A stretch of DNA of 61,292 nt from contig CAIVQO010000064.1 in assembly GCA_903908065.1 (NCBI GenBank), positions 1 to 61,292 of the forward strand, written 5' to 3'. This stretch comes from an uncultured beta proteobacterium (GTDB lineage: Bacteria > Pseudomonadota > Gammaproteobacteria > Burkholderiales > Rhodocyclaceae). This document shows positions 1,887-53,182 of the stretch, piece by piece. The notes beneath the pieces were generated by a model. That model was not told the origin of the DNA. It ran no database searches and saw only the letters and a list, made by a program, of their open reading frames with translations. Positions within the stretch are counted from its first letter, which is position 1, and every line of letters begins with the position of its first letter. The position numbers and the translations under genes are program-made.

Positions 1887-1913
1887 GGGCCGATTTTACG
1901 GCGACCCCTTTGC

Positions 1914-1942
1914 TTGACACGGCTTATTGTGCAGTGCAAAAT
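1914..1942 (+). promoter_or_regulatory. phaC promoter with TGC palindrome
   Basis: TTGACA (1914-1919), a 17-bp spacer and CAAAAT (1937-1942) make a plausible sigma-70 promoter 25 bp before the phaC ATG. The spacer and -10 box contain an imperfect palindrome, TTGTGCA-G-TGCAAAA (1927-1941, 6 of 7 arm bases paired). PhaR repressors are known to prefer TGC-rich sites, and phaR lies at the end of this operon, so autoregulation is a reasonable inference. Confidence 0.6.
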
Positions 1943-1966
1943 CCCACGTCCCCCCAGGAGCCACGG

Positions 1967-5387: not shown

Positions 5388-5433
5388 CACCAAAGTAGTA
5401 AGTAGTAATATGCTTGAACTGAGGGAGGGGAAA

Positions 5434-30567: not shown

Positions 30568-32013
30568 ATGAACGCCATCGATACGGCGCTAAGCGACGCA
30601 GCACAACAGGCCGGCACCAGCAGCGCCTTCCGTCGCCAGTTCGACGCCATGCATGCCGCCACCCGGCGCAATGCGGCAGTCGCGCGCGCCGCGCGGCAGG
30701 CGCGCCTCGACGCCCTGTTCGACCTGGTGCACGAGAACGGTGAGCGCTTCGTCGAGGCGATTGCCGCCGATTTCGGCCACCGCTCGGCGCACGAGACGCG
30801 CCTGCTGGAACTCTTTCCCAGCCTGGAGGCGGTGCGCCATACGCGGTCGCATTTAGCCGGCTGGATGAAGCCGCAGGGCAAGTCACCGTCGATCTGGTTC
30901 CGCCCCGGTCGGGCCAAGATCGTGATGCAGCCGCTGGGCGTGGTGGGCATCATCGTGCCCTGGAACTACCCGCTGTTTCTCGCCATCTCGCCCATGGCAG
31001 CGGCGCTCGCCGCTGGCAACCGGGTAATGGTCAAGATGTCGGAATTCACGCCGCGCACCGGCGAACTGCTGGCCAGCCTGGTCACCCGCTATTTCGCCCC
31101 GGAGGATGTCAGCGTGGTGCTGGGCGATGCCACGGTGGGCGCCGATTTCGCCCGCCTGCCCTTCGACCACCTGCTGTTCACCGGCTCGACCAAGGTCGGC
31201 CACGACATCATGCGCATGGCGGCGGAAAACCTGACGCCGGTCACGCTCGAGCTTGGCGGCAAGTCGCCGGCCATCGTGGCGTCCGACTACCCGCTGGAGA
31301 AGGCGGCCGAGCGCATCGTGGTCGGCAAACTGCTGAACGCCGGCCAGACCTGCATCGCTCCCGACTACGTGCTGGTGCCGGCCGGACGCGAACAGGCCTT
31401 CGTCGAGGCCGCGCGTGCGGTAGTGGCGAAATGCTGGCCCGAGCTTGGCGCCACGCCCGATTACACGGCCATCGTCAATGATCGCCACTATCAACGCCTG
31501 CAGGCCTACGTCGAGGATGCGCGCCAGCGCGGCGCCCGCATCGAGCCGCTGTCGTCGGCCCAGCCCGATGCCGCGCGACGCCGCTTGCCGCCGCTGGCCC
31601 TGCTGGACGTCAATGACGACATGCGCGTGATGCAGGACGAAATCTTCGGCCCGCTGCTGCCGGTGCTGCCCTATCGCGACCTCGACGCCGCGATTGCCTG
31701 GGTGAACCAGCATCCGCGTCCCCTGGCCCTGTATTTCTTCGGCAACGATGGCGCCCAGCGCGACCGCGTGCTGGAGGAAACCGTGGCCGGCGGCGTCACG
31801 GTCAATGACACCATCCTGCACATCGCGCAGGAGAACCTGCCCTTCGGCGGCGTCGGCCCCAGCGGCATGGGCCACTACCACGGCAGCGAGGGCTTCAAGA
31901 CCTTCTCCAAGCAGAAGGCCGTGTTCTATCAATCGAGGCTCAATGGCATGTCCTTGTTCAATCCGCCCTACGGCGCCTTGTTCGAGCGCCTCGCCAAATT
32001 CCTCATGCGCTGA
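30568..32013 (+). CDS. Coniferyl-aldehyde-type aldehyde dehydrogenase
   Basis: 481 residues, NAD(P)-dependent. IIVPWNYPLFLAISPMAAAL, FTGSTKVG, catalytic Glu in VTLELGGKSP and catalytic Cys in NAGQTCIAPDYVLV, which fits the coniferyl aldehyde / fatty aldehyde branch. The C-terminus YQSRLNGMSLFNPPYG has the family's hydrophobic end. In this setting a long-chain aldehyde is as likely a substrate as coniferaldehyde. AGGAGG ribosome site. First gene of the lipid cluster; its stop overlaps a degenerate copy of the 24-bp repeat. Confidence 0.9.
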   Translation: MNAIDTALSDAAQQAGTSSAFRRQFDAMHAATRRNAAVARAARQARLDALFDLVHENGERFVEAIAADFGHRSAHETRLLELFPSLEAVRHTRSHLAGWMKPQGKSPSIWFRPGRAKIVMQPLGVVGIIVPWNYPLFLAISPMAAALAAGNRVMVKMSEFTPRTGELLASLVTRYFAPEDVSVVLGDATVGADFARLPFDHLLFTGSTKVGHDIMRMAAENLTPVTLELGGKSPAIVASDYPLEKAAERIVVGKLLNAGQTCIAPDYVLVPAGREQAFVEAARAVVAKCWPELGATPDYTAIVNDRHYQRLQAYVEDARQRGARIEPLSSAQPDAARRRLPPLALLDVNDDMRVMQDEIFGPLLPVLPYRDLDAAIAWVNQHPRPLALYFFGNDGAQRDRVLEETVAGGVTVNDTILHIAQENLPFGGVGPSGMGHYHGSEGFKTFSKQKAVFYQSRLNGMSLFNPPYGALFERLAKFLMR

Positions 32014-32036
32014 AAGTCGGCGATGGCGGCACGCCA
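32013..32036 (-). repeat. 24-bp dispersed repeat, degenerate copy 7 (gene junction)
   Basis: AAAGTCGGCG followed by ATGGCGGCACGCCA on the plus strand. The right half is intact and the left arm has drifted. It begins right after the aldehyde dehydrogenase TGA and contains the lipase start codon. Confidence 0.4.
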
Positions 32037-32931
32037 ATTTCGCTGGGTTTTGCTGGGCGAATTCTTCATCTACGGGCTGCTGGGCGTCTGGCTGACCTCA
32101 CGCGCCGGCTGGTCGCCGGGACACGCCCTCGCGCTTGCCATTGCAGCCTTCCTTGGCCTGCGCCTGATGCTGGTCGGGCTGACTTTTGTCCTGATGCTCA
32201 AGGGTCGCGGCGAGCTTGCGCCCGAGCTGCGCCTCGGGCCACTGGCAGCGTTGCGCATGGTGCTGGAGGAATACGTCGCCATGATCCTGCTGTTTGCCGT
32301 GATCCTGCCCTTCGAGGCATTCTGGATGCGACCGGATCGCCTGGCGCCGCCGGCCGGCGGGCGCCTGCCGCTGTTGCTGATCCATGGCTACCAATGCAAC
32401 CGGGCCTTCTGGTTCTGGCAGCGGCCGCTGCTCGAAGCCGCCGGTTGGGTCGTGGCGACGCACAGCCTGGAGCCGGTGTATTCCGAAATTGATGCCTATG
32501 CCGAAGGAATCGCGCGGCGCATCGATGAGGTGCTTGCCGCGACCGGTGCGCCGCAGCTGATCCTGGTCGGCCACAGCATGGGCGGCCTGGCATCGCGCGC
32601 CTACCTGCGGCGTCATGGCGTGGCCAAGGTGGCGCGCCTGGTGACCCTGGGCTCACCGCATCAGGGCACGCTGCTGGCCGGCCTGGGCCTGGGGCCGAAT
32701 GCGCGCCAGATGCGCATCGGCAGCCCCTGGCTGCGCGCTCTGGCGGCGCCGCTGCCCGTCGGTTCGGTGTCCATCTACAGTTGCCATGACAACTATGTGT
32801 ATCCGCAGCAGGCCTGTTCGAGGCTGGATGGGGCGGCCACGGTCGCCATCGGCGGCGTCAGCCACCTCGGCATGGCGTTCTCGCCGGTGGTGCGGGCCAG
32901 CCTGCTGCAGGCACTGGAGTCGGGGCTATGA
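32023..32931 (+). CDS. Membrane-anchored alpha/beta-hydrolase (lipase/esterase)
   Basis: 302 residues. The N-terminal 105 residues contain about three hydrophobic helices. The hydrolase fold follows: LLLIHGYQCNRAFW (oxyanion region), nucleophile box VGHSMGGLASRAYL (Ser at about 187), and a final His near GGVSHLGM. Resembles triacylglycerol lipases / PGAP1-like esterases. It may mobilise stored neutral lipid. The start ATG is 9 bases after the aldehyde dehydrogenase stop. Confidence 0.87.
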   Translation: MAARQFRWVLLGEFFIYGLLGVWLTSRAGWSPGHALALAIAAFLGLRLMLVGLTFVLMLKGRGELAPELRLGPLAALRMVLEEYVAMILLFAVILPFEAFWMRPDRLAPPAGGRLPLLLIHGYQCNRAFWFWQRPLLEAAGWVVATHSLEPVYSEIDAYAEGIARRIDEVLAATGAPQLILVGHSMGGLASRAYLRRHGVAKVARLVTLGSPHQGTLLAGLGLGPNARQMRIGSPWLRALAAPLPVGSVSIYSCHDNYVYPQQACSRLDGAATVAIGGVSHLGMAFSPVVRASLLQALESGL

Positions 32932-32952
32932 ATCGGAAGAATCGAGGATGTC

Positions 32953-34551
32953 ATGAGTGAATTCGACTACATCGTGGTGGGTGGCGGGGCCGGCGGCTGC
33001 GCCTTGGCAGGGCGGCTCTCGGAAGATCCCGGCGTCAGGGTGTGCCTGCTCGAAGCCGGCAAGGACGACGACCAGCTGCTGATCAAGGTGCCGTTCTGCA
33101 CCGCGCTGATGCTGCCGACTTCAATCAACAACTGGGCTTTCGAAACCGTGCCGCAGCCGGGGCTGAATGGCCGTCGCGGCTACATGCCGCGCGGCAAGGC
33201 GATGGGCGGTTCGACCTCGATCAACGCCATGGTTTATACGCGCGGCCATCCGTGGGATTACGACCGCTGGGCGGGGCTGGGCAACGCAGGGTGGTCCTGG
33301 AACGAGGTCTTGCCCTACTTCAGGAAGTCGGAGCACAACGAGAACTTCGGCGGTGAATATCACGGGCAGGACGGGCCCCTCAACGTTGCGAATCTGCGCT
33401 CGATGAATCCCTTCCAGCAAATCTACCTTGAGGCGGCACGCCAGACCGGCTTCAAGCTGATCGACGACTTCAATGGCGCCGACCAGGAAGGCATCGGCAT
33501 CTACCAGGTGATGCAGAAGAACGGCGAACGCTGGAACGCGGCGCGCGCCTATCTGGCACCGCACCTGGCCAGCCGGCCGAACCTGACGGTGCTTACCCAG
33601 GCGCGGGCGCGCCGCATCCTGTTTTCCGGCAAGCGGGCGAGCGGCGTCGAGTTCCTGCAGGGCGGCGCACTGCGTACCCTCCAGGCCCGGCGTGAAGTGA
33701 TCCTCGCCGCCGGTGCGATCCAGTCACCGCAGCTGCTGATGCTGTCGGGCGTGGGTGCCGGCGCGGAGCTGCAGCAGTTTGGCATTCCGGTGATCCATGA
33801 CCTCCCCGGCGTTGGCAAGAACCTGCAGGACCATCCCGACTACGTCTTCAATTACCGCGCCAAATCGATGGACCTGCTCGGCATTTCGCTTGGCGGCGGG
33901 CTGCACATGATGAAGGAGGTCGGCCGCTATCGGCGCGAACGTACCGGCATGATGAGTTCGAACGGCGCCGAGGGCGGCGGCTTCCTGCGCCGCTTCCCAG
34001 ATTCCCCGGCGCCGGAGTTCCAGCTGCATTTCGTGGTCGGCATGATCGACAACCATGCGCGCAAACTGCACTTGGGCCATGGCTATTCCTGCCATATCTG
34101 CCTGCTGCGGCCGAAGAGCGTCGGCACCCTGGCGCTGGCCAGCGCCGATCCGCTGGCGGCGCCGCGCATCGACCCCAACTTCTTCGGCCACGCAGACGAC
34201 CTCGAGGCCATGGTCGACGGATTCAAGCTGACCCGCAAGCTGATGGATGCGCCCATCCTCAAGGGCATTCGCAGCGGCGAGGTATATACCGCCGGTGTGA
34301 ATACCGACGATGCAATACGCGAGGAACTGAAGAGGCGCTCCGACACCATTTACCACCCGATAGGTACCTGCAAGATGGGCAGTGATGCCGCGTCGGTGGT
34401 CGATTCGCGCCTGCGCGTCCATGGCCTTGAAGGCCTGCGCGTGGTCGATGCCTCCATCATGCCGACGCTAATCGGCGGCAATACCACGGCGCCGACGTTG
34501 ATGATCGCGGAAAAGGCCGCTGACATGATACGCAGCGATGCCGCCGGCTGA
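32953..34551 (+). CDS. GMC family FAD-dependent alcohol dehydrogenase
   Basis: 532 residues of the choline-dehydrogenase / AlkJ type. The N-terminal dinucleotide fold is YIVVGGGAGGCALAGRLSED, with GMC signature 1 in RGKAMGGSTSINAMVY (about 78-93), signature 2 in GAIQSPQLLMLSGVG, and catalytic His/Asn in YHPIGTCKMGSD and GGNTTAPTLM. It oxidises primary alcohols to aldehydes, passing electrons to quinone. With the aldehyde dehydrogenase upstream it forms an alcohol-to-acid route, suited to wax ester or alkane-derived alcohols. Confidence 0.92.
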   Translation: MSEFDYIVVGGGAGGCALAGRLSEDPGVRVCLLEAGKDDDQLLIKVPFCTALMLPTSINNWAFETVPQPGLNGRRGYMPRGKAMGGSTSINAMVYTRGHPWDYDRWAGLGNAGWSWNEVLPYFRKSEHNENFGGEYHGQDGPLNVANLRSMNPFQQIYLEAARQTGFKLIDDFNGADQEGIGIYQVMQKNGERWNAARAYLAPHLASRPNLTVLTQARARRILFSGKRASGVEFLQGGALRTLQARREVILAAGAIQSPQLLMLSGVGAGAELQQFGIPVIHDLPGVGKNLQDHPDYVFNYRAKSMDLLGISLGGGLHMMKEVGRYRRERTGMMSSNGAEGGGFLRRFPDSPAPEFQLHFVVGMIDNHARKLHLGHGYSCHICLLRPKSVGTLALASADPLAAPRIDPNFFGHADDLEAMVDGFKLTRKLMDAPILKGIRSGEVYTAGVNTDDAIREELKRRSDTIYHPIGTCKMGSDAASVVDSRLRVHGLEGLRVVDASIMPTLIGGNTTAPTLMIAEKAADMIRSDAAG

Positions 34552-34645
34552 TGTTGGATGATAGAGTTCCGGATTCGGGACGGATGATGCTCGGCGCAAA
34601 CACGGGGACAAGCCCGGCGGGCGTTTGTTTTGGAGGAGAGTTTCC

Positions 34646-36007
34646 TTGATATCGGATTTCATCAGCGATTCGTTGCGCACCTCGGCACTTGGTGCCGCCA
34701 TGAAGGGCGCCGGCCTCGCCGTGCGCTTCCTGCCCATCCCGCAGCCCACGATCCTGGTCGGACCGGGCGCCAGCGCCAGGCTGGGACAGACCATCGCCGG
34801 CTTCGGCCACGGCAAAATCCTAATCGTTACCGACAGCGTCGTCTCCAAGCTGGGCCTGCTCAAGGACCTGACCGAGGCATTGACGGCGGGTGGCACGCAG
34901 TACGTGGTATTCGATGCCATCACACCGGATGCGCCGATCCCGCTGATCGAGGACGGCATCGAGTTCTTCTGCGCCAACGGCTGCGATGCCATCGTGGCGG
35001 TTGGCGGCGGTTCCTCGATGGATGCGTCGAAGGCGATCGCCGCCGCGGTCTCCAATCCAGGCAAGTCGCTGCGCGAACTGGCCGGCTATTTCAAGGGCCT
35101 CAGCACGCCGGTGAAGATCTACGCCGTGCCCACCACGGCCGGCACCGGTTCCGAAGTGACCGTCGCCGCGGTGATTTCCGACCCCGAACGGCAGGCCAAG
35201 CTGGTGATCGTCGATACGCGCCTGGTGCCCAAGATGGCGGCGCTCGATCCCTGCCTGATGACCGGCCTGCCGCCGCCGATTACCGCGGCAACCGGCATCG
35301 ATGCGCTGACCCACGCGATCGAATCCTTCATCGGCAAATGGGCCAACCCCTATACTGATGACTTGGCCCTGTCGGCCGTCGGCCTGATTTTCGACAACCT
35401 GCGCACCGCCTATGCCGACGGGACCAATCTCGCGGCGCGCGAAAAAATGGCGCTCGCCGCCACCTATGCCGGCCTGGCCTTCACCCGTGCCAACGTCGGT
35501 TACGTGCATGCCATTGCGCACCAGTTCGGCGGCAGGTACCACACGCCCCACGGCCTGGCCAATGCCATCATGCTGCCCTTGGTCCTCAAGTATTCGTTGC
35601 CGGCCGTAACCGAACGGCTTGCCATCCTGGCGGTGCGCGCCAAACTGGGCAAGGAAAACGAAGGCGACGACGCGCTGGCGCAGAAATTCCTCGACGGGGT
35701 CGTGCAGCTCAATCGCGACCTCGGCATCCCGACCTTCCTGGCTGCGCTGAAGAAGTCCGACATCCCGCAGCTGGCCGAGGCGGCCTGCCGCGAGGCGCAC
35801 ACGGGCTACCCGGTGCCGCGCTACATGACGCAGGCGCAGTGCGAGGACCTGATCCGCCAGGTGCTGCCGCCGGAGGCAACGGCAAAGGCGCCGGAGGCCG
35901 CACCCAAAAAGGCAGCCGCGGCGCCGAAGAAGAAGCCTGCGGCCGAACCCAAGAAGCCCGCTGCAAGTCCCAAGAAGCCGCCTCCGCGCGCGAAGAAGCC
36001 GGACTGA
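34646..36007 (+). CDS. Iron-containing alcohol dehydrogenase with Lys/Pro/Ala tail
   Basis: 453 residues from TTG at 34646, the start that fits the GGAGGAG ribosome site. GGGSSMDASKAIA binds NAD(P), and VHAIAHQFGGRYHTPHG carries metal-binding His residues. The catalytic part ends near residue 412. About 40 residues of Ala/Lys/Pro repeats follow (PEAAPKKAAAAPKKK and similar), like histone H1 or PhaF tails and absent from ordinary family members. It could reduce the fatty aldehyde made by the next gene's product, or oxidise alcohols. Confidence 0.9.
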   Translation: MISDFISDSLRTSALGAAMKGAGLAVRFLPIPQPTILVGPGASARLGQTIAGFGHGKILIVTDSVVSKLGLLKDLTEALTAGGTQYVVFDAITPDAPIPLIEDGIEFFCANGCDAIVAVGGGSSMDASKAIAAAVSNPGKSLRELAGYFKGLSTPVKIYAVPTTAGTGSEVTVAAVISDPERQAKLVIVDTRLVPKMAALDPCLMTGLPPPITAATGIDALTHAIESFIGKWANPYTDDLALSAVGLIFDNLRTAYADGTNLAAREKMALAATYAGLAFTRANVGYVHAIAHQFGGRYHTPHGLANAIMLPLVLKYSLPAVTERLAILAVRAKLGKENEGDDALAQKFLDGVVQLNRDLGIPTFLAALKKSDIPQLAEAACREAHTGYPVPRYMTQAQCEDLIRQVLPPEATAKAPEAAPKKAAAAPKKKPAAEPKKPAASPKKPPPRAKKPD

Positions 36008-36065
36008 TGTCCGGTCTCCCGCGCCGCGCTGAAGGCGGTCAATCCAACAGACGAGGATCGATGTG

Positions 36066-38378
36066 ATGAAAAAAGTCGTGACGGTGACCCTGGGGTCGTC
36101 CAAGAAGGATTTCGAGTTCAAGACCAAATTCCTTGGGCAGGAATTTTCGGTGCGGCGTTTCGGCGCCGACAAGGACAGCACCAAGGCCTGGGAAATGCTG
36201 CGTCGCCAGCAGGCCAATGCCGATGTCATCGCGCTCTCCGACATGCCCGACCACTACCATGTCGGGCTGCGCACCATCATCAACAAGAAGTCACAGCACC
36301 TGTTGCAGGTGGTGACGCGGGTGCCGGTCACCACCGGCGCCAGCCTGCGCAGGTTGTTGCAGGTGCGCGCGGTGCGCCACGTGCAGAAGGAGCTGGGCAA
36401 CTACTTCAACAACAACCTGGTCCTGTTCCTCTCCGGCATGCGCAACTACGACATGGCGGTGGCCCTGTCCGATTACACCCGCAACCTGAGCTTTGCCGAC
36501 CCGGTGTTCCATGCCGCCTCCCCAGTGCTGTTGGGTTCGCTGGACCAGCTCGAACTCTTTGCCAAGGGCAAGGAACTGCTGCCCGAAGGGCTGCCGGGCG
36601 ACTTCCTCAAGGGCGTCCTTGGCACGCTGAAAAACAAGATCGTGGCCAATGCGGTGGACAAGTCGCAGGTCATCGTCGGCACCTTCCGCGAGATCCAGGC
36701 CGTGGCCTCGGGCCGCAACCTGGAGGGCAAGACGCTTATCACATCTGCCGTGGATGACGAGGCCTTCGCCTTCTTCGCCAAGCACAAGGTGAATCTGGCG
36801 GTGGACGTGACGCCGAAACTCTTCGACCAGGTGGTGGGCATCAGCACCATTACCGCCATGATCCTGGCTGCAACGGGCAAGGCCGAGTCGGAACTTACCG
36901 ATCACGATTTCGAGGAGATCCTGCACGAGCTGGACATCAAGCCGCGCCTGATCCACCCCACGGGGCATTTCCGCAACATCCGCCGCTTCGCCTTCGTCGT
37001 CCATCCGCTGAGCCAGGAATACATCAAGAAGGGTTTTCCGCTGCCCAAGGGCACGCCCAAGTTCATCATGGACAAGGTGGAGACGCTGGCTGCCTACATG
37101 CCGCCCATGGTGTACTGCAAGATGAGCAACATCGTCTCGCCGACGGGGGCCGAGGCAGAAGGCTGGCTGATTTCGGTCGGCGGCACGCCCAAGGAAATGC
37201 TCTCGCACAGCCCCGAGTTCACCTATCGGCGCCTGCTCCACGCAGCAAAGATCGCCGAAGGCCTGGGCGCGCAGATCATGGGCCTGGGCGCCTTCACCAA
37301 GGTGGTCGGCGATGCGGGCGTGACCGTGGCGCGCCGCGCCGATATCCCGATCACCACCGGCAACAGCTATTCGGCATCGGGGGCGCTGTGGGCCGCGGCC
37401 GACGCCATGCGCCGCATGGGGATGATCAAGGTGACCAAGGAGTCGAAGCGGGTGCCGGCCAAGACCATGGTGATCGGCGCCACGGGTTCCATCGGCTCGG
37501 TCAGCGCGCGCCTGTTGGCAATGGCCTTCGATGAGGTGGTGATCGCCGGTCGCGACATGAAGAAGCTCAACGAGCTGCGCGATTCGATCCTGCAGGACAC
37601 GCCGGATGCCAAAGTCATTTGTTCGACGGATTACGACAGCCTGCTGGCCGACATGGACATGATCGTCACCTCGACCTCGGGCGCCGGCAAGAAGATCCTT
37701 GACATCACCAAGGTCAAGCCGGGCTGCGTCATCACCGACGTCGCGCGACCGCTCGACCTGCCGCCCTCGGAGGTCGCCAAGCGCCCGGACGTACTGGTGA
37801 TCGAGTCGGGTGAGATCGAACTGCCGACGCCGGTCAAGGGCATGAAGTCGATCGGCCTGCCGAAGAACGTGATTTACGCCTGCCTGGCGGAAACCATCGT
37901 GCTGGCGCTGGAAGGCCGCTTCGAGGTCTTCACCATTGGCCGCGATACCGAGTGGGAGAAGGTCAAGGAAATCTACAAACTCGGCCTCAAGCACGGCATG
38001 AAACTGTCGGCGATCTCAGGCGTCAAGGGTGTGTACAGCGACGAGGACATCGCCAAGGTGGTGGCCCTGGCGAAGAAGGCGAGGCGTACCTGGAAGGGCG
38101 GCAGCGCTGCCGCTCCGGCGAAGGCGGCACCCTCCAAGGCGGCGCCAAAGAAAGCGGCCCCCAAGCCGCCCGCCGTCGATAAGCCAGCGGGCGCGAAACC
38201 TGCCGCCAAAAAGGCCGTAGCGAAGAGGCCTGCGGCCAACAAGCCAGCAGTCAAGAAGCCAGCAGTCAAGAAGGCGACTGCCGAGGCCGCCGCCGCCGCG
38301 GCGAAGCCGGCCGCGACCAAGGCTTCGGCTCCGAAGGGCGCCGCCAAGGCCGCCACGCGCAAGAAGACGACGGCATAA
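36066..38378 (+). CDS. Acyl-ACP-reductase-like protein with N-terminal extension and H1-like tail
   Basis: 770 residues in three parts. Residues 1-300: an unrecognised domain (starts MKKVVTVTLGSSKK). Residues about 310-670 align by eye with cyanobacterial long-chain acyl-ACP reductase: MGLGAFTKVVGDAG (about 405), ITTGNSYSASG (about 430), Rossmann VIGATGSIGS (about 470), and IYACLAETIVLALEG, whose Cys near 606 matches the acyl-enzyme Cys of that enzyme. Residues 676-770: Ala/Lys/Pro repeats. It probably makes fatty aldehyde from acyl-ACP or acyl-CoA. ATG at 36066 chosen over GTG 36063. Confidence 0.8.
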   Translation: MKKVVTVTLGSSKKDFEFKTKFLGQEFSVRRFGADKDSTKAWEMLRRQQANADVIALSDMPDHYHVGLRTIINKKSQHLLQVVTRVPVTTGASLRRLLQVRAVRHVQKELGNYFNNNLVLFLSGMRNYDMAVALSDYTRNLSFADPVFHAASPVLLGSLDQLELFAKGKELLPEGLPGDFLKGVLGTLKNKIVANAVDKSQVIVGTFREIQAVASGRNLEGKTLITSAVDDEAFAFFAKHKVNLAVDVTPKLFDQVVGISTITAMILAATGKAESELTDHDFEEILHELDIKPRLIHPTGHFRNIRRFAFVVHPLSQEYIKKGFPLPKGTPKFIMDKVETLAAYMPPMVYCKMSNIVSPTGAEAEGWLISVGGTPKEMLSHSPEFTYRRLLHAAKIAEGLGAQIMGLGAFTKVVGDAGVTVARRADIPITTGNSYSASGALWAAADAMRRMGMIKVTKESKRVPAKTMVIGATGSIGSVSARLLAMAFDEVVIAGRDMKKLNELRDSILQDTPDAKVICSTDYDSLLADMDMIVTSTSGAGKKILDITKVKPGCVITDVARPLDLPPSEVAKRPDVLVIESGEIELPTPVKGMKSIGLPKNVIYACLAETIVLALEGRFEVFTIGRDTEWEKVKEIYKLGLKHGMKLSAISGVKGVYSDEDIAKVVALAKKARRTWKGGSAAAPAKAAPSKAAPKKAAPKPPAVDKPAGAKPAAKKAVAKRPAANKPAVKKPAVKKATAEAAAAAAKPAATKASAPKGAAKAATRKKTTA

Positions 38379-38394
38379 GTCCGGCTTTGCTTCT

Positions 38395-38415
38395 CCCCGC
38401 TGCCACGCAGCGGGG
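38395..38415 (+). terminator. Hairpin after the reductase gene
   Basis: CCCCGCTG (38395-38402), loop CCACG, CAGCGGGG (38408-38415). An 8-bp GC stem 17 bp after the stop, without T-run. It separates the reductase gene from the phasin gene, which probably has its own promoter in 38430-38480. Confidence 0.55.
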
Positions 38416-38553
38416 CCGTGGCGGTGAGGCCGCGGTCATTAGTGTGCTTTCTCTAATCCCGGTCGCTAGACTGCTCTCTGTAGGCAGGCGTTGCCACCGG
38501 CTTCATGCGGTGCGACGACAGAGACAGGTCACAGCACAACTTTGGAGAATGCA

Positions 38554-39054
38554 ATGGTCAAGAAACTCGTAGTGAAAAAACTCAAGTCTGTCGCCATGGA
38601 CAGCCAGCTTTCCGCAACGATCCGCGATTCGGCAGAGCAGATCTGGCTTGCCGGACTCGGCGCCTTTGCCAAGGCTCAGGAAGAAGGCACCAAGGTGTTC
38701 GATGCCCTGATCCGCGAAGGCGAAGCCATCCAGAAGAAGACCCGCAAGGTGACCGAGGACAAGGTGACCGAAATGGCTGCCAAGGCCACGGGTACCTGGG
38801 ACAAGCTGGAGCAGGTGTTCGAAGGCCGCGTTGCGCGTGCCCTCAACAGCTTGGGCGTGCCGACCAAGGCTGATGTCGCCGCACTCTCGAAGCGCGTCGC
38901 CGAACTCAAGGCCGAGGTAGAGAAGCTCAATGGCGCCGCAACCCGTGCCGCGAAACCCAAGGCCGCACCGGCGCGCAAGCCCGCGGTCAAGGTGGTCAAG
39001 GCCGCCAAACCGGCCAAGCCAGCCGCCAAGCCGGAGCAGAAGGCCGCCGCCTAA
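38554..39054 (+). CDS. PhaF/PhaI-type phasin with Lys/Pro/Ala tail
   Basis: 166 residues. The N-terminal phasin domain (IWLAGLGAFAKAQEEGTKVF, about 29-48) is amphipathic and coats storage granules. A coiled-coil segment (VAALSKRVAELKAEVEKLN, about 108-126) gives oligomers. A roughly 38-residue Ala/Lys/Pro tail follows, as in Pseudomonas PhaF, where such a tail binds DNA and helps granule segregation. A TTGGAGA ribosome site precedes the ATG at 38554. It may coat PHA, neutral-lipid inclusions, or both. Confidence 0.92.
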   Translation: MVKKLVVKKLKSVAMDSQLSATIRDSAEQIWLAGLGAFAKAQEEGTKVFDALIREGEAIQKKTRKVTEDKVTEMAAKATGTWDKLEQVFEGRVARALNSLGVPTKADVAALSKRVAELKAEVEKLNGAATRAAKPKAAPARKPAVKVVKAAKPAKPAAKPEQKAAA

Positions 39055-39101
39055 GTGGTGACCGCGCTTGACGCGCCAGGCGTGACCGACGGGGGATGGC
39101 G

Positions 39102-40349
39102 ATGACACGCGGCCGCCAGCATGGACGGGCGGTGGCGCTGGCAGGAGGTGGTCCGCTCGGCGCGATCTATGAGGTCGGGGCCCTGATGGCGCTCTCAGAA
39201 GCGCTGGACGGGTTCGACTTCAACGATCTCGATGCCTACGTCGGCGTCAGCGCCGGCGGCTTCATCGCCGCCGGCTTGGCCAGCGGCCTCAGTCCGGCCT
39301 ACCTCTACCGCATGTTCATCGACAGCGAGGAGGCCGAGGTTCCCTTCGAGCCCGAGTTGCTGCTGCGTCCTGCCTTGCGTGAGTACGCCTCGCGTGCAGG
39401 CAGGTTGCCGGGCCTGCTGGCCGACGCCCTGCGCGAACTGCTGCGTAATCCGCTGCGCCCCGACCCGGTGGCCTCCTTTGCCCGCCTGGCGCGGGCGATC
39501 CCGGCCGGGGTGTTCGACAGCGACGGCATCGACGAATTCCTCTCGCGCCTCTTTGCGCGCCTGGGCATCGCCAATGACTTCCGGCAGTTGCCGCGGCGGC
39601 TTTACCTGGTCGCGACTGAACTCGACTCGGGCCGCGCGGTGGCCTTCGGCACGCCGGGCATGGAACATGTGCCGGTATCGCGTGCGGTGCAGGCCAGCGC
39701 CTCGCTGCCCGGGCTGTTCCCGCCGGTCAACATCGGCGGGCGCTGGTACGTCGACGGCGCGCTGAAGAAGACGTTGCACGCCTCGGTGGCGCTGAAGGAG
39801 GGCGCACGCCTGGTGTTCTGCATCAACCCGCTGGTGCCCTTCGATGCCCAACTCGCGGTGCGCGAACGCCACCTGCCGCATCGGCAACTGGTCGATGGCG
39901 GACTGCCAGCGGTGCTGGCGCAGACCTTCCGCGCCATCATCCATTCGCGCATGAAAACCGGCCTGGCGAAGTACGAGATCGAGTACCGCGATGCCGACGT
40001 GATCCTGTTCGAGCCCCGTCCCGACGACGCCGACATGTTCTTCAGCAACATGTTCAGCTATGCCGACCGCAAACGGCTGGCGCTCTTGGCCTATCGCCGC
40101 ACGCGCGAGGAACTGCTGCGCCGCTACGACGAATTGGCGCCCAGGCTCGCCCGGCACGGGGTGAGCATCAATCGCGCGGTGCTTGAGATGCCGCACGGCG
40201 CACCGGCGCGCCGCGTGGTGAGCCTGGCCCATCGGCGGGCCGGCGTTATGGGGCGCGCCGCGCTGGATCTTTCCGATACGCTGGACGACCTCGCCCGTGC
40301 CCTGCGGCGCCGGCGGCCGCCTCCCGCGTCGGGTCGCGCCGCGGCCTGA
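39102..40349 (+). CDS. Patatin-like phospholipase / acylhydrolase
   Basis: 415 residues. The oxyanion motif ALAGGGPLGAIYEVGAL, nucleophile elbow GVSAGG (Ser at about 50) and the dyad Asp in VDGALKK define a patatin domain. The second half (CINPLVPFDAQ onward) is the extension seen in DUF3336/patatin-like bacterial proteins. It hydrolyses phospholipid, triacylglycerol or possibly granule lipid. ATG at 39102 is better spaced from GGGGG than ATG 39096. The C-terminus is Arg/Pro/Ala-rich. Confidence 0.88.
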   Translation: MTRGRQHGRAVALAGGGPLGAIYEVGALMALSEALDGFDFNDLDAYVGVSAGGFIAAGLASGLSPAYLYRMFIDSEEAEVPFEPELLLRPALREYASRAGRLPGLLADALRELLRNPLRPDPVASFARLARAIPAGVFDSDGIDEFLSRLFARLGIANDFRQLPRRLYLVATELDSGRAVAFGTPGMEHVPVSRAVQASASLPGLFPPVNIGGRWYVDGALKKTLHASVALKEGARLVFCINPLVPFDAQLAVRERHLPHRQLVDGGLPAVLAQTFRAIIHSRMKTGLAKYEIEYRDADVILFEPRPDDADMFFSNMFSYADRKRLALLAYRRTREELLRRYDELAPRLARHGVSINRAVLEMPHGAPARRVVSLAHRRAGVMGRAALDLSDTLDDLARALRRRRPPPASGRAAA

Positions 40350-40411
40350 GGGCAGGGCTCGGCAGGGGGCGCATCTGCTATGCTCGACCAACACAGACCC
40401 GGTCCGACGTG

Positions 40412-41059
40412 ATGGAACGAAAGCCCAAGCGCCGCACGCGCGAGCGCATCCTCGAAACCTCGCTGCAGCTGTTCAACGACTTCGGCGAGCCGAACGTCAC
40501 CACGCAGTTGATTTCGGACGAGATGGGCATCAGCCCGGGCAATCTTTACTACCACTTCCACAACAAGGACGAGATCATCGAGTCGCTGTTCGCCGATTTC
40601 GAGCGCGACATCGACGACATCCTGTCCGCACCGACGCGGCGGGCGACGAACGTCGAAGACATCTGGCTATTCCTGCACCTGATCTTCGAGGTCATCTGGA
40701 AGTACCGCTTCCTCTACCGCGACATCAACGAACTGCTGTCGCGCAACCGCCTGCTGGAAACCCACTTCAAGCGCATCGTGGCGCGCAAGGTCAGTACCGC
40801 GACTGCTATCTGCAAGGGACTGGTCGCCACCGGCGACATGCGCGCAAACCCGGCCGAGATCCAGGCCCTGGCGGTCAACATGACCGTGGTCGCCACCTAC
40901 TGGCTGTCCTTCGAGTTCGTCAGCGACCCGCGCAAGAAGATCGATGGCAACAGCCTTTCCCGCGGTGCCTTCCAGGTCATGGCCTTGTCGGCTCCCTATC
41001 TCACCGGACGCTCGCGCAAGCTGTTCGAGGAAGTGTCGAAGAATTACCTGACGGACTGA
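40412..41059 (+). CDS. TetR family transcriptional regulator
   Basis: 215 residues. The N-terminal helix-turn-helix is RERILETSLQLFNDFGEPNV with ISPGNLYYHFHNKDEIIESL (about 12-57). The C-terminal ligand domain resembles the TetR_C_33-type domain (LLSRNRLLETHF). Probably senses an acyl-CoA or fatty acid and controls the surrounding lipid genes, by analogy to FadR/PsrA-type TetR proteins. ATG 40412 chosen; a GTG lies immediately upstream. Confidence 0.9.
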   Translation: MERKPKRRTRERILETSLQLFNDFGEPNVTTQLISDEMGISPGNLYYHFHNKDEIIESLFADFERDIDDILSAPTRRATNVEDIWLFLHLIFEVIWKYRFLYRDINELLSRNRLLETHFKRIVARKVSTATAICKGLVATGDMRANPAEIQALAVNMTVVATYWLSFEFVSDPRKKIDGNSLSRGAFQVMALSAPYLTGRSRKLFEEVSKNYLTD

Positions 41060-41068
41060 GGGCGCGAT

Positions 41069-41866
41069 ATGAGCCGCAGCAAAGCACAACAGCCATGGCA
41101 GGCCTTTCCGCACGCGGATCCGGCGTTCAATTACGCCGGTCCGGCGCTGAAGAAGAACTGGGAACGCCTGCACGGTGGCGATCGCGAGCCCTTCCCGGGC
41201 GATCCTGCCGTCGAGGAGGCCTGGCGCCTCTATCACCGGGGAGAGTTCCAGGCTGCTTGCGATGCCGGCCTCACGGCCGGTTTGGATGGTTACAACGCGG
41301 CCAACAAGGCGGCCATGATCCACGCCACCTACCTCGAAGATGACGAGCGTCGCAAGCTGGCGGCGTTCCAGAGCATCGCCACGCGCTGCGACGAACTGCA
41401 GCGGGCCCAACCGAAGAACGTCAATGGGCATTACTTCCAGGCTTACGCGCTGGGCCGCTACAGTCAGGGCATTTCGGTACTGAAGGCATTGACCGACGGC
41501 CTGGGCGGGCGCATCAAGTCCGCGCTCGAGGCGAGCCTGCGCCTGGACCCGAAGCACGCCGAAGCGCACATTGCGCTGGGCGCCTACCATGCTGAGGTGG
41601 TGGACAAGATGGGTGCGATGGTCGCCAAGCTGACCTACGGCGCGAGCAAGGAAGTCGCCCTCAAGCACTTCGATGCGGCCTTGAAGCTGATTCCGGGGTC
41701 GGCGATTGCCCGCATCGAGTATGCCAATGCCCTGGTTCTGCTGTTCGGCGACAAGCGCATGAACGATGCGGTCGATTTCTACGAGCAGGCCGCCGCGGCT
41801 ACGCCGGCGGACGCCATGGAAAAGCTCGACGTCGAACTGGCGAAGTCGGAACTGGAAGAAGAGTAG
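41069..41866 (+). CDS. TPR-like repeat protein
   Basis: 265 residues, no signal peptide. Helical repeats of TPR type are visible at AEAHIALGAYHAEVVDKMGA (about 171-190), ALKHFDAALKLIPGSAIARI and AVDFYEQAAAATPADAMEK. The N-terminal 45 residues (FPHADPAFNYAGPALKKNW) are unusual. A probable protein-interaction scaffold. It follows the TetR gene by 9 bp and ends 3 bp from the convergent wax synthase gene. Confidence 0.8.
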   Translation: MSRSKAQQPWQAFPHADPAFNYAGPALKKNWERLHGGDREPFPGDPAVEEAWRLYHRGEFQAACDAGLTAGLDGYNAANKAAMIHATYLEDDERRKLAAFQSIATRCDELQRAQPKNVNGHYFQAYALGRYSQGISVLKALTDGLGGRIKSALEASLRLDPKHAEAHIALGAYHAEVVDKMGAMVAKLTYGASKEVALKHFDAALKLIPGSAIARIEYANALVLLFGDKRMNDAVDFYEQAAAATPADAMEKLDVELAKSELEEE

Positions 41867-41869
41867 CGG

Positions 41870-43510
41870 CTAGGCGGTCCGGCGGAAGCGCTTCGGTATC
41901 CGGCGCGGGGCCGCCGGCTTCGGCGTCATGTCGCCGGCTTCGCCGGAGTCGGCATCCACCGCTGACGGAGCGGGTGATCGGGCGGTACGCACTGCAGATT
42001 TTGCCTTGGGCCTTGGTTTCGGCGGCATCGGCTTCGTTGCCTTCTTCGCGCCGGTGACGCGGCGGCCGAACAGCTTTTCTTCTGCCAGCAGCGGGTCGAG
42101 CGGCTGGTCCCATTCCAGCATCAGCAGCGCTAGCAGCATCTTCTCGAACTCGGCGGCGAACAGCGGCGTCACAGCCTCCGGGTCGGGAATGAAATGCCGG
42201 TCGCTGATCAGGCTGAACTGGACCGTGTCGTTGTAGCTGAGGATGGAGACCCCGACCCCGATGTCGCCCGATTGCGGCACCCAGAACATGCACTGATCGA
42301 GCCGGTTGCCGGCGAGGTAAAGGGGCTGCTTCGGTCCCGGGACATTGGTCATCACAGTGCTGGCCTTGGCCGCCAACATGTCGAGGAAGGCCTGCTGTGC
42401 CAGTTTTGGCGCCAGGCCGACCGCGGCGAGGACACCCAGGGTCAGTGGTGGCTGGAAGGAGTGCTTCAGTTCGTCCATGCGCTCGCGTACCAGGAACAGG
42501 CGCGCGAAGGGATTCGCTTCCCAGATCGGCAGCGAGAGCGTGACCAGGCCGAAGCGGTTGCCGAGGGTGCCCTCGTCGCGCGCGGAACGCAGGTTGACCG
42601 GCACCATGGCCCGTATCTCTACGCCGTCGACGTTCTCGCCCTTCTGTTCGAGATAGGCGCGAAAGGCGCCGGCCACGGCGGACAGCAGCACGTCGTTGAC
42701 CGAACAGCCGAGGGCCTTGCCCAGTGCCTTGACCTCGCCAAGGGGCATCGGCTCGGCCCAGGCCACGCGCTTCACGGTGCTGGTGTGGCCCTTGAGACTA
42801 GTGGGCGAGTCGGGCGGCATTGCCAGCAGCTTGGCGAGTTCGGCAAGCAAGCCGATGCCGTATTGGCCATAGGTCTGCAGGCGGTCAGGGTCCTGCGCCA
42901 GTGTAATCGCCTGGTGACCCAGATCGCTACCGGCATGGACGGCGGTACCCAGGGTTTCGACCAGGGTTTCCAGCAGGCCGCGCGAGGGCTCATCGGCATC
43001 GAACTCGTCCTCGTCGTCCGCTTGCTGCGCTTCCCGCGGCGCGGAATCCGGCGATTCGTCGGTCAGAGAGAGGACCACGCCGACCAGCGCTATGCCATCG
43101 GCAATGCTGTGGTGGATGCGCACCACCATGGCCGAGCCGCCTTCGTAATCCTCGATCAGCTCGAAGCGCCAGAGCGGCTTGCCGGGGTTGAGCGGTTGCA
43201 CAGCGAGTTCGCTGGCCAGCGCCTGCAGGCCGGCCTTGCCGGAGCCCTTGGGCAAGGCGCGGCGGCGCAGGTGGGCGTCAAGGTCGAAATCGGGATCGTC
43301 TTCCCAGAAGGCGCCACCGACTTCCTGCACCGCGCATTGGCGAAAGCGCCGGTAACGACCCAGCAGGCGGTCCGCGATGGTGGCGCGCAAACGCGCAAAA
43401 TCCATGCGTTCGGCGAAAACCATGACGCCAACGATCATCATCAGGTTGGTCGGGCGGTCCATCCGCAACCAGGCCGTATCAACGGCGGACATTCTCTCGC
43501 GTCGGGGCAT
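41870..43510 (-). CDS. Wax ester synthase / diacylglycerol acyltransferase (WS/DGAT) with basic tail
   Basis: 546 residues. The WES acyltransferase domain starts SAVDTAWLRMDRPTNLM. The catalytic HHSIADG lies near residue 140, and the second conserved block is NVPGPKQPLYLAG with the downstream SYN motif (SILSYNDTVQFSL). It esterifies acyl-CoA with fatty alcohol or diacylglycerol at the membrane or lipid body. The last roughly 65 residues are Lys/Arg/Pro-rich (AKKATKPMPPKPRPKAKS), unlike typical members. ATG 43510 has TGGAAG correctly spaced. Divergent from the acyl-CoA-binding protein gene. Confidence 0.93.
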   Translation of the reverse strand: MPRRERMSAVDTAWLRMDRPTNLMMIVGVMVFAERMDFARLRATIADRLLGRYRRFRQCAVQEVGGAFWEDDPDFDLDAHLRRRALPKGSGKAGLQALASELAVQPLNPGKPLWRFELIEDYEGGSAMVVRIHHSIADGIALVGVVLSLTDESPDSAPREAQQADDEDEFDADEPSRGLLETLVETLGTAVHAGSDLGHQAITLAQDPDRLQTYGQYGIGLLAELAKLLAMPPDSPTSLKGHTSTVKRVAWAEPMPLGEVKALGKALGCSVNDVLLSAVAGAFRAYLEQKGENVDGVEIRAMVPVNLRSARDEGTLGNRFGLVTLSLPIWEANPFARLFLVRERMDELKHSFQPPLTLGVLAAVGLAPKLAQQAFLDMLAAKASTVMTNVPGPKQPLYLAGNRLDQCMFWVPQSGDIGVGVSILSYNDTVQFSLISDRHFIPDPEAVTPLFAAEFEKMLLALLMLEWDQPLDPLLAEEKLFGRRVTGAKKATKPMPPKPRPKAKSAVRTARSPAPSAVDADSGEAGDMTPKPAAPRRIPKRFRRTA

Positions 43511-43551
43511 CGTCATCTTCCAAAAAGGTGCGGAGGTATCACTGGGGTACC

Positions 43552-43572
43552 GTCCCGGCAATTAGCCGGGAC
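43552..43572. repeat. Palindromic repeat, copy A
   Basis: GTCCCGGC, AATTA, GCCGGGAC, flanked by TACC on the left and ATAT on the right. A second copy follows 16 bp later with the same flanks. Confidence 0.75.
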
Positions 43573-43588
43573 ATATCGCGAGGATACC

Positions 43589-43609
43589 GTCTCGGCCAAT
43601 GGCCGAGAC
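43589..43609. repeat. Palindromic repeat, copy B
   Basis: GTCTCGGCC, AAT, GGCCGAGAC, again flanked by TACC and ATAT. It ends directly before a TATAAT box (43611-43616) that may serve the acyl-CoA-binding protein gene, so the palindrome covers the -35 region and could be an operator. Confidence 0.75.
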
Positions 43610-43665
43610 ATATAATAGTTCAGCCTATCTTGGGCGACCATTCCTTCCTTTACGGTGACGACGAC

Positions 43666-43923
43666 ATGAGCAATCTCAAGAAGAAGTTCGAAGCGGCGGT
43701 GGCCGATTCCAAGAAGCTCTCCGAGCGCCCTTCCAACGATGTGCTGTTGCAGCTGTATGCGCTTTACAAGCAGGGCAGCGAGGGCGATGTGGAAGGCAAG
43801 CGCCCCGGCTTTACAGACATGGTGGGCCGCGCCAAGTATGACGCCTGGGCGGCGGTCAAGGGCACGGACTCCGAGGATGCCATGCAGCAATACATCGACC
43901 TGGTGAATTCGCTGAAGGGCTGA
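43666..43923 (+). CDS. Acyl-CoA-binding protein (ACBP)
   Basis: 85 residues with the four-helix ACBP fold: LKKKFEAAVADSKKLSERPS, then LLQLYALYKQGSEGDV (acyl-CoA pocket), KRPGFTDMVGRAKYDAWAAV (Lys/Tyr contacts to CoA) and AMQQYIDLVNSL. It buffers long-chain acyl-CoA in the cytosol. ACBP is common in eukaryotes and patchy in bacteria. Divergent from WS/DGAT, to which it could supply acyl-CoA. The promoter has TATAAT at 43611 with a palindrome over the -35 region. Confidence 0.94.
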   Translation: MSNLKKKFEAAVADSKKLSERPSNDVLLQLYALYKQGSEGDVEGKRPGFTDMVGRAKYDAWAAVKGTDSEDAMQQYIDLVNSLKG

Positions 43924-51002: not shown

Positions 51003-51011
51003 TGCGGCTCC

Positions 51012-52676
51012 TCAGGCTTTCTCGTCGCGCAGCTGGCGGCGCAGGATCTTGCCGACGTTGGTCTTCGGCAGCTCGGTGCGGAAGGCAATGTGGCGCGGCA
51101 CCTTGTAGGCCGTCAGGTTGGCACGACAGTGCTCGAGCAGCGAGGCCTCGCTCAGGTTCGGGTCGCGCTTGACGACATAGATCTTCACCGCCTCGCCGGT
51201 CTTCGGATCGGGCACGCCCACTGCCGCCGATTCGAGCACCCCGGGGTGCAGCGCCAGCACGTCCTCGATCTCGTTGGGATAAACGTTGAAGCCGGAGACC
51301 AGGATCATGTCCTTCTTGCGGTCGACGATCTTGACGAAACCGGTCGGCTCCATCACGGCGACGTCGCCGGTACGCAGGTAGCCATCGCTCATGATCACCT
51401 TGGCGGTTTCCTCGGGCCGGTTCCAGTAGCCCTTCATCACCTGCGGACCGCGGATGCACAGCTCGCCCGCTTCACCGACCGGCAGTTCCTTGCCGTCGTC
51501 GTCGCGGATCGAAACCTCGGTGGAGGAAATCGGCAGGCCGATGCAGCCGTTGTATTCCTCCAGGTCGACCGGGTTGATGGTCGCCGCCGGCGAGGTTTCG
51601 GTCAGGCCGTAGGCTTCGAGCAGGGTGACGCCGGTGATCTCCTTCCAGCGCTCGGCCACCGCCCGCTGCACCGCCATGCCGCCACCCAGGGTCAGGCGCA
51701 GGTTCGACAGATCGATCTTGGCGAACTCGGGGTTGTTTACCATGGCGTTGAACAGGGTGTTCACGCCGGTGATGGTGGTGAAGGGATACTTCGAAATTTC
51801 CTTGACGAAGCCGGGGATGTCGCGCGGATTGGTGATCAGCACGTTGGTGGCGCCGATCTTGAAGAAGGTCAGGCAGTTCGCGGTCAGCGCGAAGATGTGG
51901 TACAGCGGCAGCGCGGTGATGATGATTTCATGGTCCTTGAGGAAGGGCCGGATCCAGGCATGCGACTGCTGCAGGTTGGCGATGATGTTGCGGTGGGTCA
52001 GCATCGCGCCCTTCGAGACGCCGGTGGTGCCGCCGGTGTATTGCAGGAAGGCGATGTCCTCGTGGCCGACGTCGGCCGGCTTCAGCGGGTGGCGGCCACC
52101 CTCGATCAGGGCGTCGCGCAGCTCGATGGCATGGGCGATGTTCCAGGCCGGCACCATCTTCTTGACGTGCTTGACCACCAGGTTGACGATCATGCGCTTG
52201 GGGAAGTCGAGCAGGTCGCCCAGCTGGGTCACGATCACATGCTTCACCGGGGTGCGAGCCACCACCTTCTCCAGCACGCTGGCGAAGTTTTCGACAATGA
52301 CGATCGCCTCGGCCCCGGAATCCTTGAGCTGGTGTTCCAGTTCGCGCTCGGTGTACAAGGGGTTGCAATTCACCACCGTGTAGCCGGCGCGCAGCGCGCC
52401 GTAGAGGCAGACCGGGTACTGCAACAGGTTGGGCATCATCAGCGCGATGCGGCTGCCCCTGGGCAGTTTCAGCACCGACTGGCAATAGGCGCCGAAGTTG
52501 GCCGAGAGCTTCTCCAACTCGGCGTAGGTCAGCGCCTTGTCCATGTTGATGTAGGCCTTGCGCGTGGCGTACTGCTTAGCGCTTTTCTCGAACAGGTCGC
52601 CGATCGACTTGAACTCGTCGAGATTCACTTCCGCCGGCACGGTGGCGGGGTAATGCTTGAGCCAGATCTTTTCCAT
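51012..52676 (-). CDS. fadD: Long-chain fatty acid--CoA ligase FadD
   Basis: 554 residues. The ATP site is [17 protein letters not shown] (about 210-226), with [10 protein letters not shown], the adenylate Asp in [10 protein letters not shown] and the FACS-like block [20 protein letters not shown]. The C-terminal Lys is in [13 protein letters not shown]. It activates fatty acids to acyl-CoA at the inner membrane. ATG 52676 follows GAGGAG. Paired with a PHA-system protein, it could feed acyl-CoA to beta-oxidation, PHA or wax/triacylglycerol synthesis. Confidence 0.96.
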
Positions 52677-52765
52677 GATGTGCTCCTCGTCTGTGTTTTG
52701 GCCCATTCTAAACACTTGCGCCGGGGCGGCTACAATCCCGCCAACGCCAACCGCAGGAGCCGCCG

Positions 52766-53182
52766 ATGGGTGCATTCCACTATGCTTTCCCGATCACCGA
52801 CATTGCCCGCGCGCGCGACTTCTACGTCGGCCGGCTGGGCTGCGCCGAGGGGCGCAGCACGGCGCACTGGATCGATTTCGAGCTGTTCGGCCACCAGCTT
52901 TCGGCGCACCTCGGCACGCCGTCCGGGGCTGCCTGCATGGGGCTGGTCGATGGCCACGAAGTGCCGATTCCGCACTTTGGCGCGATCCTGCCGCCCGACG
53001 AGTTCTGGCGCTTTGCCGAACGCCTGAAGCAGCAGGGCATCCGCTTCCTGATGGAGCCTACCCTGCGCTTCGCCGGCAAGCCGGGCGAACAGGCAACGAT
53101 GTTCTTCCTCGATCCGGACGGCAACGCGCTGGAGTTCAAGGCCTTTACCCGCGCCGACGAGGTGTTTGCGCGCCAGGCCTGA
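52766..53182 (+). CDS. VOC family protein (glyoxalase-like)
   Basis: 138 residues with one VOC domain: [20 protein letters not shown] with the metal His near 5, LGCAEG, then [15 protein letters not shown] with the metal Glu. Resembles the glyoxalase-superfamily proteins related to fosfomycin resistance and dioxygenases, but without a substrate-specific mark. It has an AGGAG ribosome site and diverges from fadD with a short shared promoter region. Confidence 0.88.

Follow-up and report, generated by a model that had tools for sequence, protein, structure and literature searches.

Histone H1-like tails on the synthesis enzymes of a probable wax-ester storage cluster in Sulfuritalea

PhaF of Pseudomonas and PhaM of Cupriavidus are nucleoid-linked proteins of polyhydroxyalkanoate (PHA) granules with a C-terminal histone-like DNA-binding domain, according to the available part of PMC13052382. 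In MLDS of Rhodococcus jostii, which the accessible text of PMC5504291 presents as the major droplet protein and not as an enzyme, a C-terminal lysine-rich PAKKA region binds DNA, and replacement of Lys by Glu abolishes binding. AlgP of Pseudomonas aeruginosa, for which the available portion of PMC9239181 describes no catalytic domain, needs its KPAA-rich H1-like tail for the spacing of granules, in this case of polyphosphate. Wax ester/triacylglycerol potential has been predicted in Betaproteobacteria, with MAQU_2507-like reductases and with acyl-CoA-binding protein (ACBP) and phasin genes nearby (PMC10351704, accessible in part), and the main text of that paper contains no word beginning ‘lysine’. 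Here we analyse the 61,292-nucleotide contig CAIVQO010000064.1 (hereafter the window), an entire contig (C64) of a 3.84-Mb Sulfuritalea genome (G000). We find that four proteins of a predicted neutral-lipid gene cluster end in H1-like tails: an iron-containing alcohol dehydrogenase (Fe-ADH), a reductase resembling acyl-ACP reductase (AAR) and PigE, a phasin, and a wax ester synthase/diacylglycerol acyltransferase (WS/DGAT). The phasin resembles PhaF and PhaM in being a predicted granule protein with a basic C-terminal tail; in those systems, however, a coat or adaptor protein bears the tail, whereas here three kinds of metabolic enzyme bear it as well. Tails on the coat proteins of droplets and granules are known already. 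A first-pass annotation of the window had named no described system with tails on the enzymes themselves, and we likewise found no description of tails on lipid-making enzymes in the open-licence literature searched; none of the papers listed in one such search mentions Sulfuritalea.

The cluster comprises nine consecutive genes on one strand, from an aldehyde dehydrogenase (ALDH) to a TPR-like protein, with the WS/DGAT gene on the minus strand and the ACBP gene beyond it on the plus strand (Table 1). Pfam and NCBIfam were applied to the ten proteins at 30568-43561, and Pfam alone to ACBP. Every gene named in the first-pass annotation was found in its place and in its family, save that the one called a lipase, although present, is classed by Pfam simply as an alpha/beta hydrolase. 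The phasin scores 134.4 bits on PF05597 (cut-off 28.8), which we take to be the Pfam family of PhaF, and 103.1 on TIGR01837 (cut-off 94.7). It is the single PF05597 match in the genome, and the Fe-ADH, whose inferred TTG start codon is preceded by GGAGGAG, is the only protein there to match PF25137. The WS/DGAT scores 391.2 bits on TIGR02946 (cut-off 309.95) and exceeds the cut-offs of both PF03007 and PF06974; its translation contains HHSIADG, a form of the HHxxxDG motif that PMC11948995, in its accessible part, names for WS/DGAT. The cluster would serve storage of wax ester and perhaps also of triacylglycerol, and we regard wax-ester synthesis as very probable. In this scheme the reductase (whole gene 36066-38378) would convert acyl-CoA or acyl-ACP to fatty aldehyde, the Fe-ADH would reduce the aldehyde to fatty alcohol and the WS/DGAT would esterify the alcohol, while the GMC alcohol dehydrogenase, the ALDH, the hydrolase and the patatin may later degrade the ester.

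A tail was defined as a C-terminal stretch of at least 30 residues rich in K, R, A and P and with few acidic and hydrophobic residues. Four of the 48 called genes in the window have one, namely the Fe-ADH, reductase, phasin and WS/DGAT genes, which bears out the Lys/Pro/Ala-rich tails of the first-pass annotation at the lengths given in Table 1. In the rest of the genome, sampled over 293 kb as 20 stretches across contigs plus one chosen for its two WS/DGATs, 2 of 229 called genes are tailed, both encoding WS/DGATs. A check of all frames adds a third outside WS/DGAT on contig 5 and one DUF3106 protein, both uncalled, and four further frames that look spurious. The complete congener G002, sampled as 39 evenly spaced stretches (780 kb), has 3 tailed among 624 called genes, encoding ribosomal protein S3, a DEAD-box helicase and a sigma factor, all nucleic-acid binders by family. 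Because the gene caller yields only about 0.8 genes per kb, some genes are missed in these counts. In the sampled stretches, then, such tails are not common on unrelated enzymes.

Among Sulfuritalea orthologues, the net charge of the last 30 residues is +6 to +11 for the reductase (n = 17), +6 to +9 for the phasin (n = 16), +4 to +9 for the Fe-ADH (n = 17) and +2 to +10 for the WS/DGAT (n = 12, leaving out one truncated sequence). The medians of the untailed proteins are 0 for GMC and ACBP, -1 for the hydrolase, +1 for TetR and -5 for the TPR-like protein, with ALDH and patatin slightly basic at +2 each. The tails thus divide the cluster: synthesis and coat proteins carry them, and ACBP and the presumed breakdown enzymes do not. 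The three PHA synthases of the genome have no tail at any of their C-termini, which rules out that all storage-polymer synthases are tailed.

The reductase occurs in 17 of 31 Sulfuritalea genomes and in none of 30 other sampled genomes of the family and order; 368 other genomes of the class yielded one full-length match (G231, 64% identity, untailed) and, in G378, two strong partial ones. From named genome records we kept 80 of 88 reductase loci, 66 of them outside Sulfuritalea. The tails persist among orthologues: both reductase and Fe-ADH are tailed in all 17 reductase-bearing Sulfuritalea genomes, the window included, and 70 of the 75 complete reductases from named records are tailed. Across the 66 outside loci, 53 of 58 called reductase genes have tails of at least 15 residues, as do all 40 Fe-ADHs of at least 60% identity, 21 of which reach at least 30; by comparison, 13 of 672 neighbouring genes unrelated to the cluster are tailed, 5 of them at 30 residues or more, and some of these are probably spurious frames. 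Fe-ADH tail length varies from 16 to 45 residues in the genus (n = 17) and from 13 to 97 in 68 Fe-ADHs of over 65% identity.

Some reductase records are unusual in themselves. In L109 (12020-12270, Dechloromonas sp. SSD3) the tail is Arg/Pro-rich in place of Lys/Ala-rich, as if read in another frame, and still basic, reflecting either an assembly error or a real change. The records L133, L117 and L145 are labelled Endozoicomonas, Thermoanaerobaculia and Acidobacteria, respectively; the first groups with Salinisphaera, the second among Burkholderiales, and the third is 74% identical to the window reductase, so mislabelling or misbinning is possible. Weak matches to the reductase tail also occur inside other long Lys/Ala-rich frames at L019 (G006:C188:2365-2694) and L020 (G021:C180:2359-2553).

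The tails on WS/DGATs extend beyond the cluster. All four WS/DGATs of the window genome (one in the window, one on contig 48 and two on contig 5) are basic at the end, although the second on contig 5 has the composition of a tail (34 residues) but fails the charge rule (+3); the basic ends of the three outside the window, one of them short, rule out a tail confined to this locus. Across Sulfuritalea, 41 of 44 unique WS/DGAT sequences are tailed and the other three have short basic ends. We also read 72 WS/DGATs, of 102 matches including fragments, from 30 reductase genomes hand-picked from the 66 outside loci with preference for isolates and long contigs. By the charge rule 50 of these 72 are tailed, compared with 5 of 25 from genomes of the class (Fisher p 4e-5; sequences from G000 and G231 left out, and related sequences not independent). 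Among WS/DGATs that neighbour the reductase in the 66 loci, those below 40% identity are tailed in 7 of 7 cases and those at 40-60% in none of 3. In a FastTree tree, which carried long-branch warnings, the tail state changes 19 times, at least 16 of them on well-supported branches, indicating that tails recur. The window-type WS/DGAT ends in R[IV]PKRFR in 18 of 21 complete orthologues even though the remainder of the tail varies, and this end may possibly be a short linear motif (window 41873-41902; orthologues L021-L036 and L216-L227). Strongly lysine-rich tails also occur on some WS/DGATs of G203, G227 and G172 (L246, L257, L258 and L263), other gammaproteobacteria with no reductase among the matches listed.

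How the tails evolve was examined in 25 sister pairs of reductases, for which alignment within the repeats is uncertain. Sister pairs share 94.6% identity in the core and 58.2% in the tail. K-E and A-T exchanges are each reachable through one first-base transition, yet the tail shows 7 K-E exchanges per 392.5 K sites (0.018 per site) versus 79 A-T exchanges per 532 A sites (0.148 per site); the core values are 11 per 1176 and 27 per 1577.5. Single-base codon differences number 403 synonymous and 174 non-synonymous in the tail, and 4409 and 505 in the core. The rarity of K-E relative to A-T exchanges, together with the synonymous excess, implies that the tail is translated and free in sequence while its charge is held. 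The Fe-ADH tails likewise stay positive as their sequence diverges. The tails are almost certainly functional, with charge under selection, and the background counts and codon-level evolution together rule out chance or a gene-calling artefact.

What the tails bind is the point on which explanations divide. The motif [PAV]AKK[APTV] occurs in 58 of 70 reductase tails and PAKKA itself in 27; a lysine-rich PAKKA region is also what links neutral-lipid droplets to DNA in MLDS, with which our comparison is by described features only. We propose that the tails would bind nucleoid DNA without sequence specificity, as in PhaF and MLDS, which might collect the enzymes of synthesis and the droplet coat on one scaffold and keep droplets distributed along the chromosome. 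DNA tethering is suggested by the composition of the tails, by the fact that most other tailed proteins are nucleic-acid binders, by one match to HC2 (PF07382, histone H1-like) and by the precedents. On HC2, where low-complexity scores are unreliable and the gathering cut-off is 40, the isolated reductase tail of the window scores 21.8 and those of three orthologues 45.8, 36.3 and 34.5, one of the four thus lying above it; the full-length reductase gives no HC2 match. A PDB search with the tail as sole query gave no hit. From this analysis we see an even balance for and against DNA as the main partner, and the whole explanation, a wax-ester storage cluster with DNA-tethering tails, is for us just as evenly poised.

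Alternatively, the tails may bind another polyanion, such as polyphosphate, RNA or the anionic lipid head groups of the droplet or inner membrane, which would bring the enzymes together where the droplet grows, with no link to the chromosome. AlgP offers the precedent: it has a similar KPAA tail, sits on polyphosphate granules and needs its C-terminus for their spacing (PMC9239181, available portion). Selection on charge and not on sequence suits any polyanion, and the locus WS/DGATs, whose tails have 10.7% large hydrophobic residues (n = 10) and the conserved terminal PKRFR, also fit this alternative. The other two enzymes, however, point the other way: aromatic residues number 7 in 5335 residues of reductase tail and 1 in 2144 of Fe-ADH tail, and the pooled 7479 residues hold 93 I, L or M, a composition unlike that of typical membrane anchors as judged from the sequences. 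Furthermore, the sampled stretches of G002 yielded no other tailed proteins than the three nucleic-acid binders named above. On this evidence another polyanion is a serious contender that we nonetheless doubt.

The reductase and its partner also suggest a distinct route to fatty alcohol. The central domain of the reductase matches cyanobacterial AAR and PigE over the domain, including the active-site cysteine: Cys606 (37881-37883), invariant in 34 sequences, aligns with the cysteine of AAR that 6jzz has as Ser, and is presumably the acyl carrier, the role of this cysteine in the AAR/PigE superfamily. The protein differs from those enzymes in its H1-like tail and in an N-terminal domain of 306 residues (36066-36983), well conserved, for which we found no Pfam family and no PDB sequence match. 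It scores 64.8 bits on the cyanobacterial-type acyl-ACP reductase profile TIGR04058, against a cut-off of 449.7, is likewise below cut-off on NF053554, and is matched better by the PigE profile than by that of AAR.

Within Sulfuritalea this reductase and a fatty-acyl reductase of PF07993 are mutually exclusive (Fisher p 6e-7). Strong PF07993 matches (E 3.4e-49 or better) occur in 12 of the 14 genomes that lack the reductase and in none of the 17 that have it (best 1.6e-15); G009 and G024, 81 and 74% complete, have neither. Two of the twelve PF07993 proteins (G010 and G028) were checked and score about 1010 bits, over a cut-off of 549, on NF005539/PRK07201, the AcrB profile of PMC11948995 (accessible part); the window genome has no NF005539 match at E 1e-80. 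In all eight genomes that have the AcrB-type gene and the cluster on one contig, this gene adjoins the phasin gene and faces away from it, standing where the Fe-ADH/reductase pair stands in other congeners. In six (G010, G028, G005, G017, G001 and G027) it lies between the hydrolase or GMC gene and the phasin gene; the stretches around it in G003 and G015 contain no hydrolase or GMC match. This placement argues for a non-orthologous exchange in place, and hence for the same step, probably acyl-CoA to fatty alcohol. The two solutions differ in build: AcrB is one untailed enzyme of the short-chain dehydrogenase/reductase (SDR) type in the opposite orientation, whereas the pair consists of a tailed AAR/PigE-like reductase and a tailed Fe-ADH. 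We consider it most likely, from the sequence comparisons, that the pair makes the fatty alcohol for wax ester. A route through an HMGR-type FcrA is ruled out, PF00368 being matched in none of the 31 Sulfuritalea genomes.

WS/DGAT is present in all 30 chosen reductase genomes but in just 13 of the 228 genomes sampled from the class, where 12 of the 13 exceed the cut-off and one is the reductase genome G231. Together with the AcrB-type exchange, this count strengthens the neutral-lipid function proposed in the first-pass annotation. ALDH, GMC and TetR genes are usual in catabolic clusters, and these genes, like the better score on PigE than on AAR, would suit some other fatty aldehyde or alcohol role, whether in detoxification, alkane or alcohol catabolism or envelope lipid; the WS/DGAT, ACBP and phasin neighbours, the exchange beside the phasin gene and the 30 of 30 genomes with WS/DGAT all argue for storage instead and make such a role improbable. 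Least plausible of all is that the tails are GC-rich low-complexity repeat expansions without a shared role (solubility aids, for example), spread by chance and drift, for although their length and sequence are highly variable, VAKKA runs look repeat-like and some WS/DGAT orthologues and the AcrB-type reductase are untailed, the idea is already disfavoured by a substitution pattern that keeps charge and not sequence (repeat alignment being uncertain), by the few functional classes tailed in the sampled stretches, by the tails on paralogous WS/DGATs and by those on the 70 reductases.

A more far-reaching form of the DNA-tethering explanation is that storage lipid is made at the chromosome surface by a nucleoid-anchored assembly, so that droplets are born tethered and segregate with the chromosome. 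The tail would then be a reusable address label of neutral-lipid enzymes, repeatedly gained and lost, in Burkholderiales and some other gammaproteobacteria, and the AAR/PigE-like reductase with Fe-ADH would be a new reductase route to wax ester, interchangeable in position with AcrB. We offer this extended proposal tentatively. If true, a whole metabolic pathway, and not merely the finished granule, would be placed on the chromosome through a generic polycation tail, giving a simple rule for spatial organisation and for the inheritance of storage lipid. The pair would also predict wax-ester makers among Burkholderiales. The available part of PMC11948995 calls the fatty aldehyde reductase of the two-step wax-ester route unknown, and the pair would offer a candidate for it.

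Several observations weigh against nucleoid tethering as a general property of the pathway. The first-pass annotation had asked whether tailed reductase, Fe-ADH and WS/DGAT co-occur; outside the genus, 6 of the 30 reductase genomes have no tailed WS/DGAT among those read, the matches having been read completely only in G438 and G455. Three WS/DGATs (45-51% identity) that adjoin tailed reductases, two from Inhella and one from Variovorax, are all untailed, and the tailed gammaproteobacterial reductases L127 and L134 are accompanied only by an untailed, distant Fe-ADH (52-53%). The presumed breakdown enzymes lack tails, so co-occurrence is imperfect within the cluster too, and the DUF3106 protein has one. 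The window WS/DGAT tail is the weakest of the four, with an acidic patch and mixed charge, and the Fe-ADH, phasin and contig 48 WS/DGAT tails, scanned alone, give no HC2 match. The five untailed reductases, of which four carry a gammaproteobacterial label, fall together on one side of a branch with support 83, and a single change of state would therefore account for the reductase tail; their loci contain no Fe-ADH match. The AcrB-type reductase is untailed in all seven sequences read to the end, which means that a tailed reductase is not essential to the pathway and rules out tails on every pathway enzyme. Moreover, AcrB exceeds its cut-off in 12 of the 30 reductase genomes outside Sulfuritalea, so the exclusion holds at the genus level. 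It is present in all six genomes without a tailed WS/DGAT among those read and in 6 of the 24 others (Fisher p 0.0016), a link found after looking and only a lead.

Table 1 Features of the window and AcrB-type genes of congeners (net charges in parentheses or as ranges over the last 30 residues)
Feature	Position	Strand	Basis
Class I PHA synthase, untailed control	1835..3694	+	TIGR01838, 721 bits over 623
Aldehyde dehydrogenase, presumed mobilisation enzyme, untailed	30568..32013	+	PF00171; +2 to +3, n = 13
Alpha/beta hydrolase (lipase-like), untailed	32023..32931	+	PF00561; -2 to +2, n = 16
GMC alcohol dehydrogenase/oxidase, presumably oxidises fatty alcohol, untailed	32953..34551	+	PF00732/PF05199; -1 to +1, n = 17
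Fe-ADH, presumed fatty aldehyde reductase	34646..36007	+	PF00465/PF25137
Fe-ADH basic tail, 45 aa (+9)	35870..36004	+	Composition/charge
Reductase N-terminal domain, residues 1-306	36066..36983	+	Conserved
Acyl-thioester reductase domain (AAR/PigE-like)	36984..38087	+	4ppm_A and 6jzq_A matches, alignment
Reductase H1-like tail, 96 aa (+22)	38088..38375	+	Composition/charge
PF05597 phasin	38554..39054	+	PF05597, TIGR01837 above cut-off
Phasin basic tail, 36 aa (+10)	38944..39051	+	Composition/charge
Patatin-like phospholipase/lipase, short basic end only	39096..40349	+	PF01734; +1 to +4, n = 13
TetR-family regulator	40409..41059	+	PF13972, PF00440
TPR-like protein, acidic end	41069..41866	+	Weak TPR matches below cut-off; -8 to -2, n = 14
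WS/DGAT, start inferred	41870..43516	-	PF03007, PF06974, TIGR02946
WS/DGAT tail, 79 aa (+11), ends RIPKRFRRTA	41873..42109	-	Composition/charge
ACBP	43666..43923	+	PF00887
FadD-type long-chain acyl-CoA ligase, may supply acyl-CoA	51012..52775	-	NF005463, 903 bits over 869
AcrB-type/PF07993 gene beside phasin (L216-L227)	G010:C82, G028:C40, G003:C36, G005:C3, G017:C91, G001:C28, G027:C14, G015:C56

Elsewhere in the window, the PHA synthase gene lies with an SDR reductase pair and PhaR at 1835-5988, so that PHA genes and the wax-ester-type cluster place two storage systems near each other. At 50721-52775 a PHA_gran_rgn protein adjoins the FadD-type ligase. A helix-turn-helix protein at 53248-53976 (minus strand), without an NCBIfam match, is Lys/Pro/Ala-rich at its N-terminus and not at its C-terminus.

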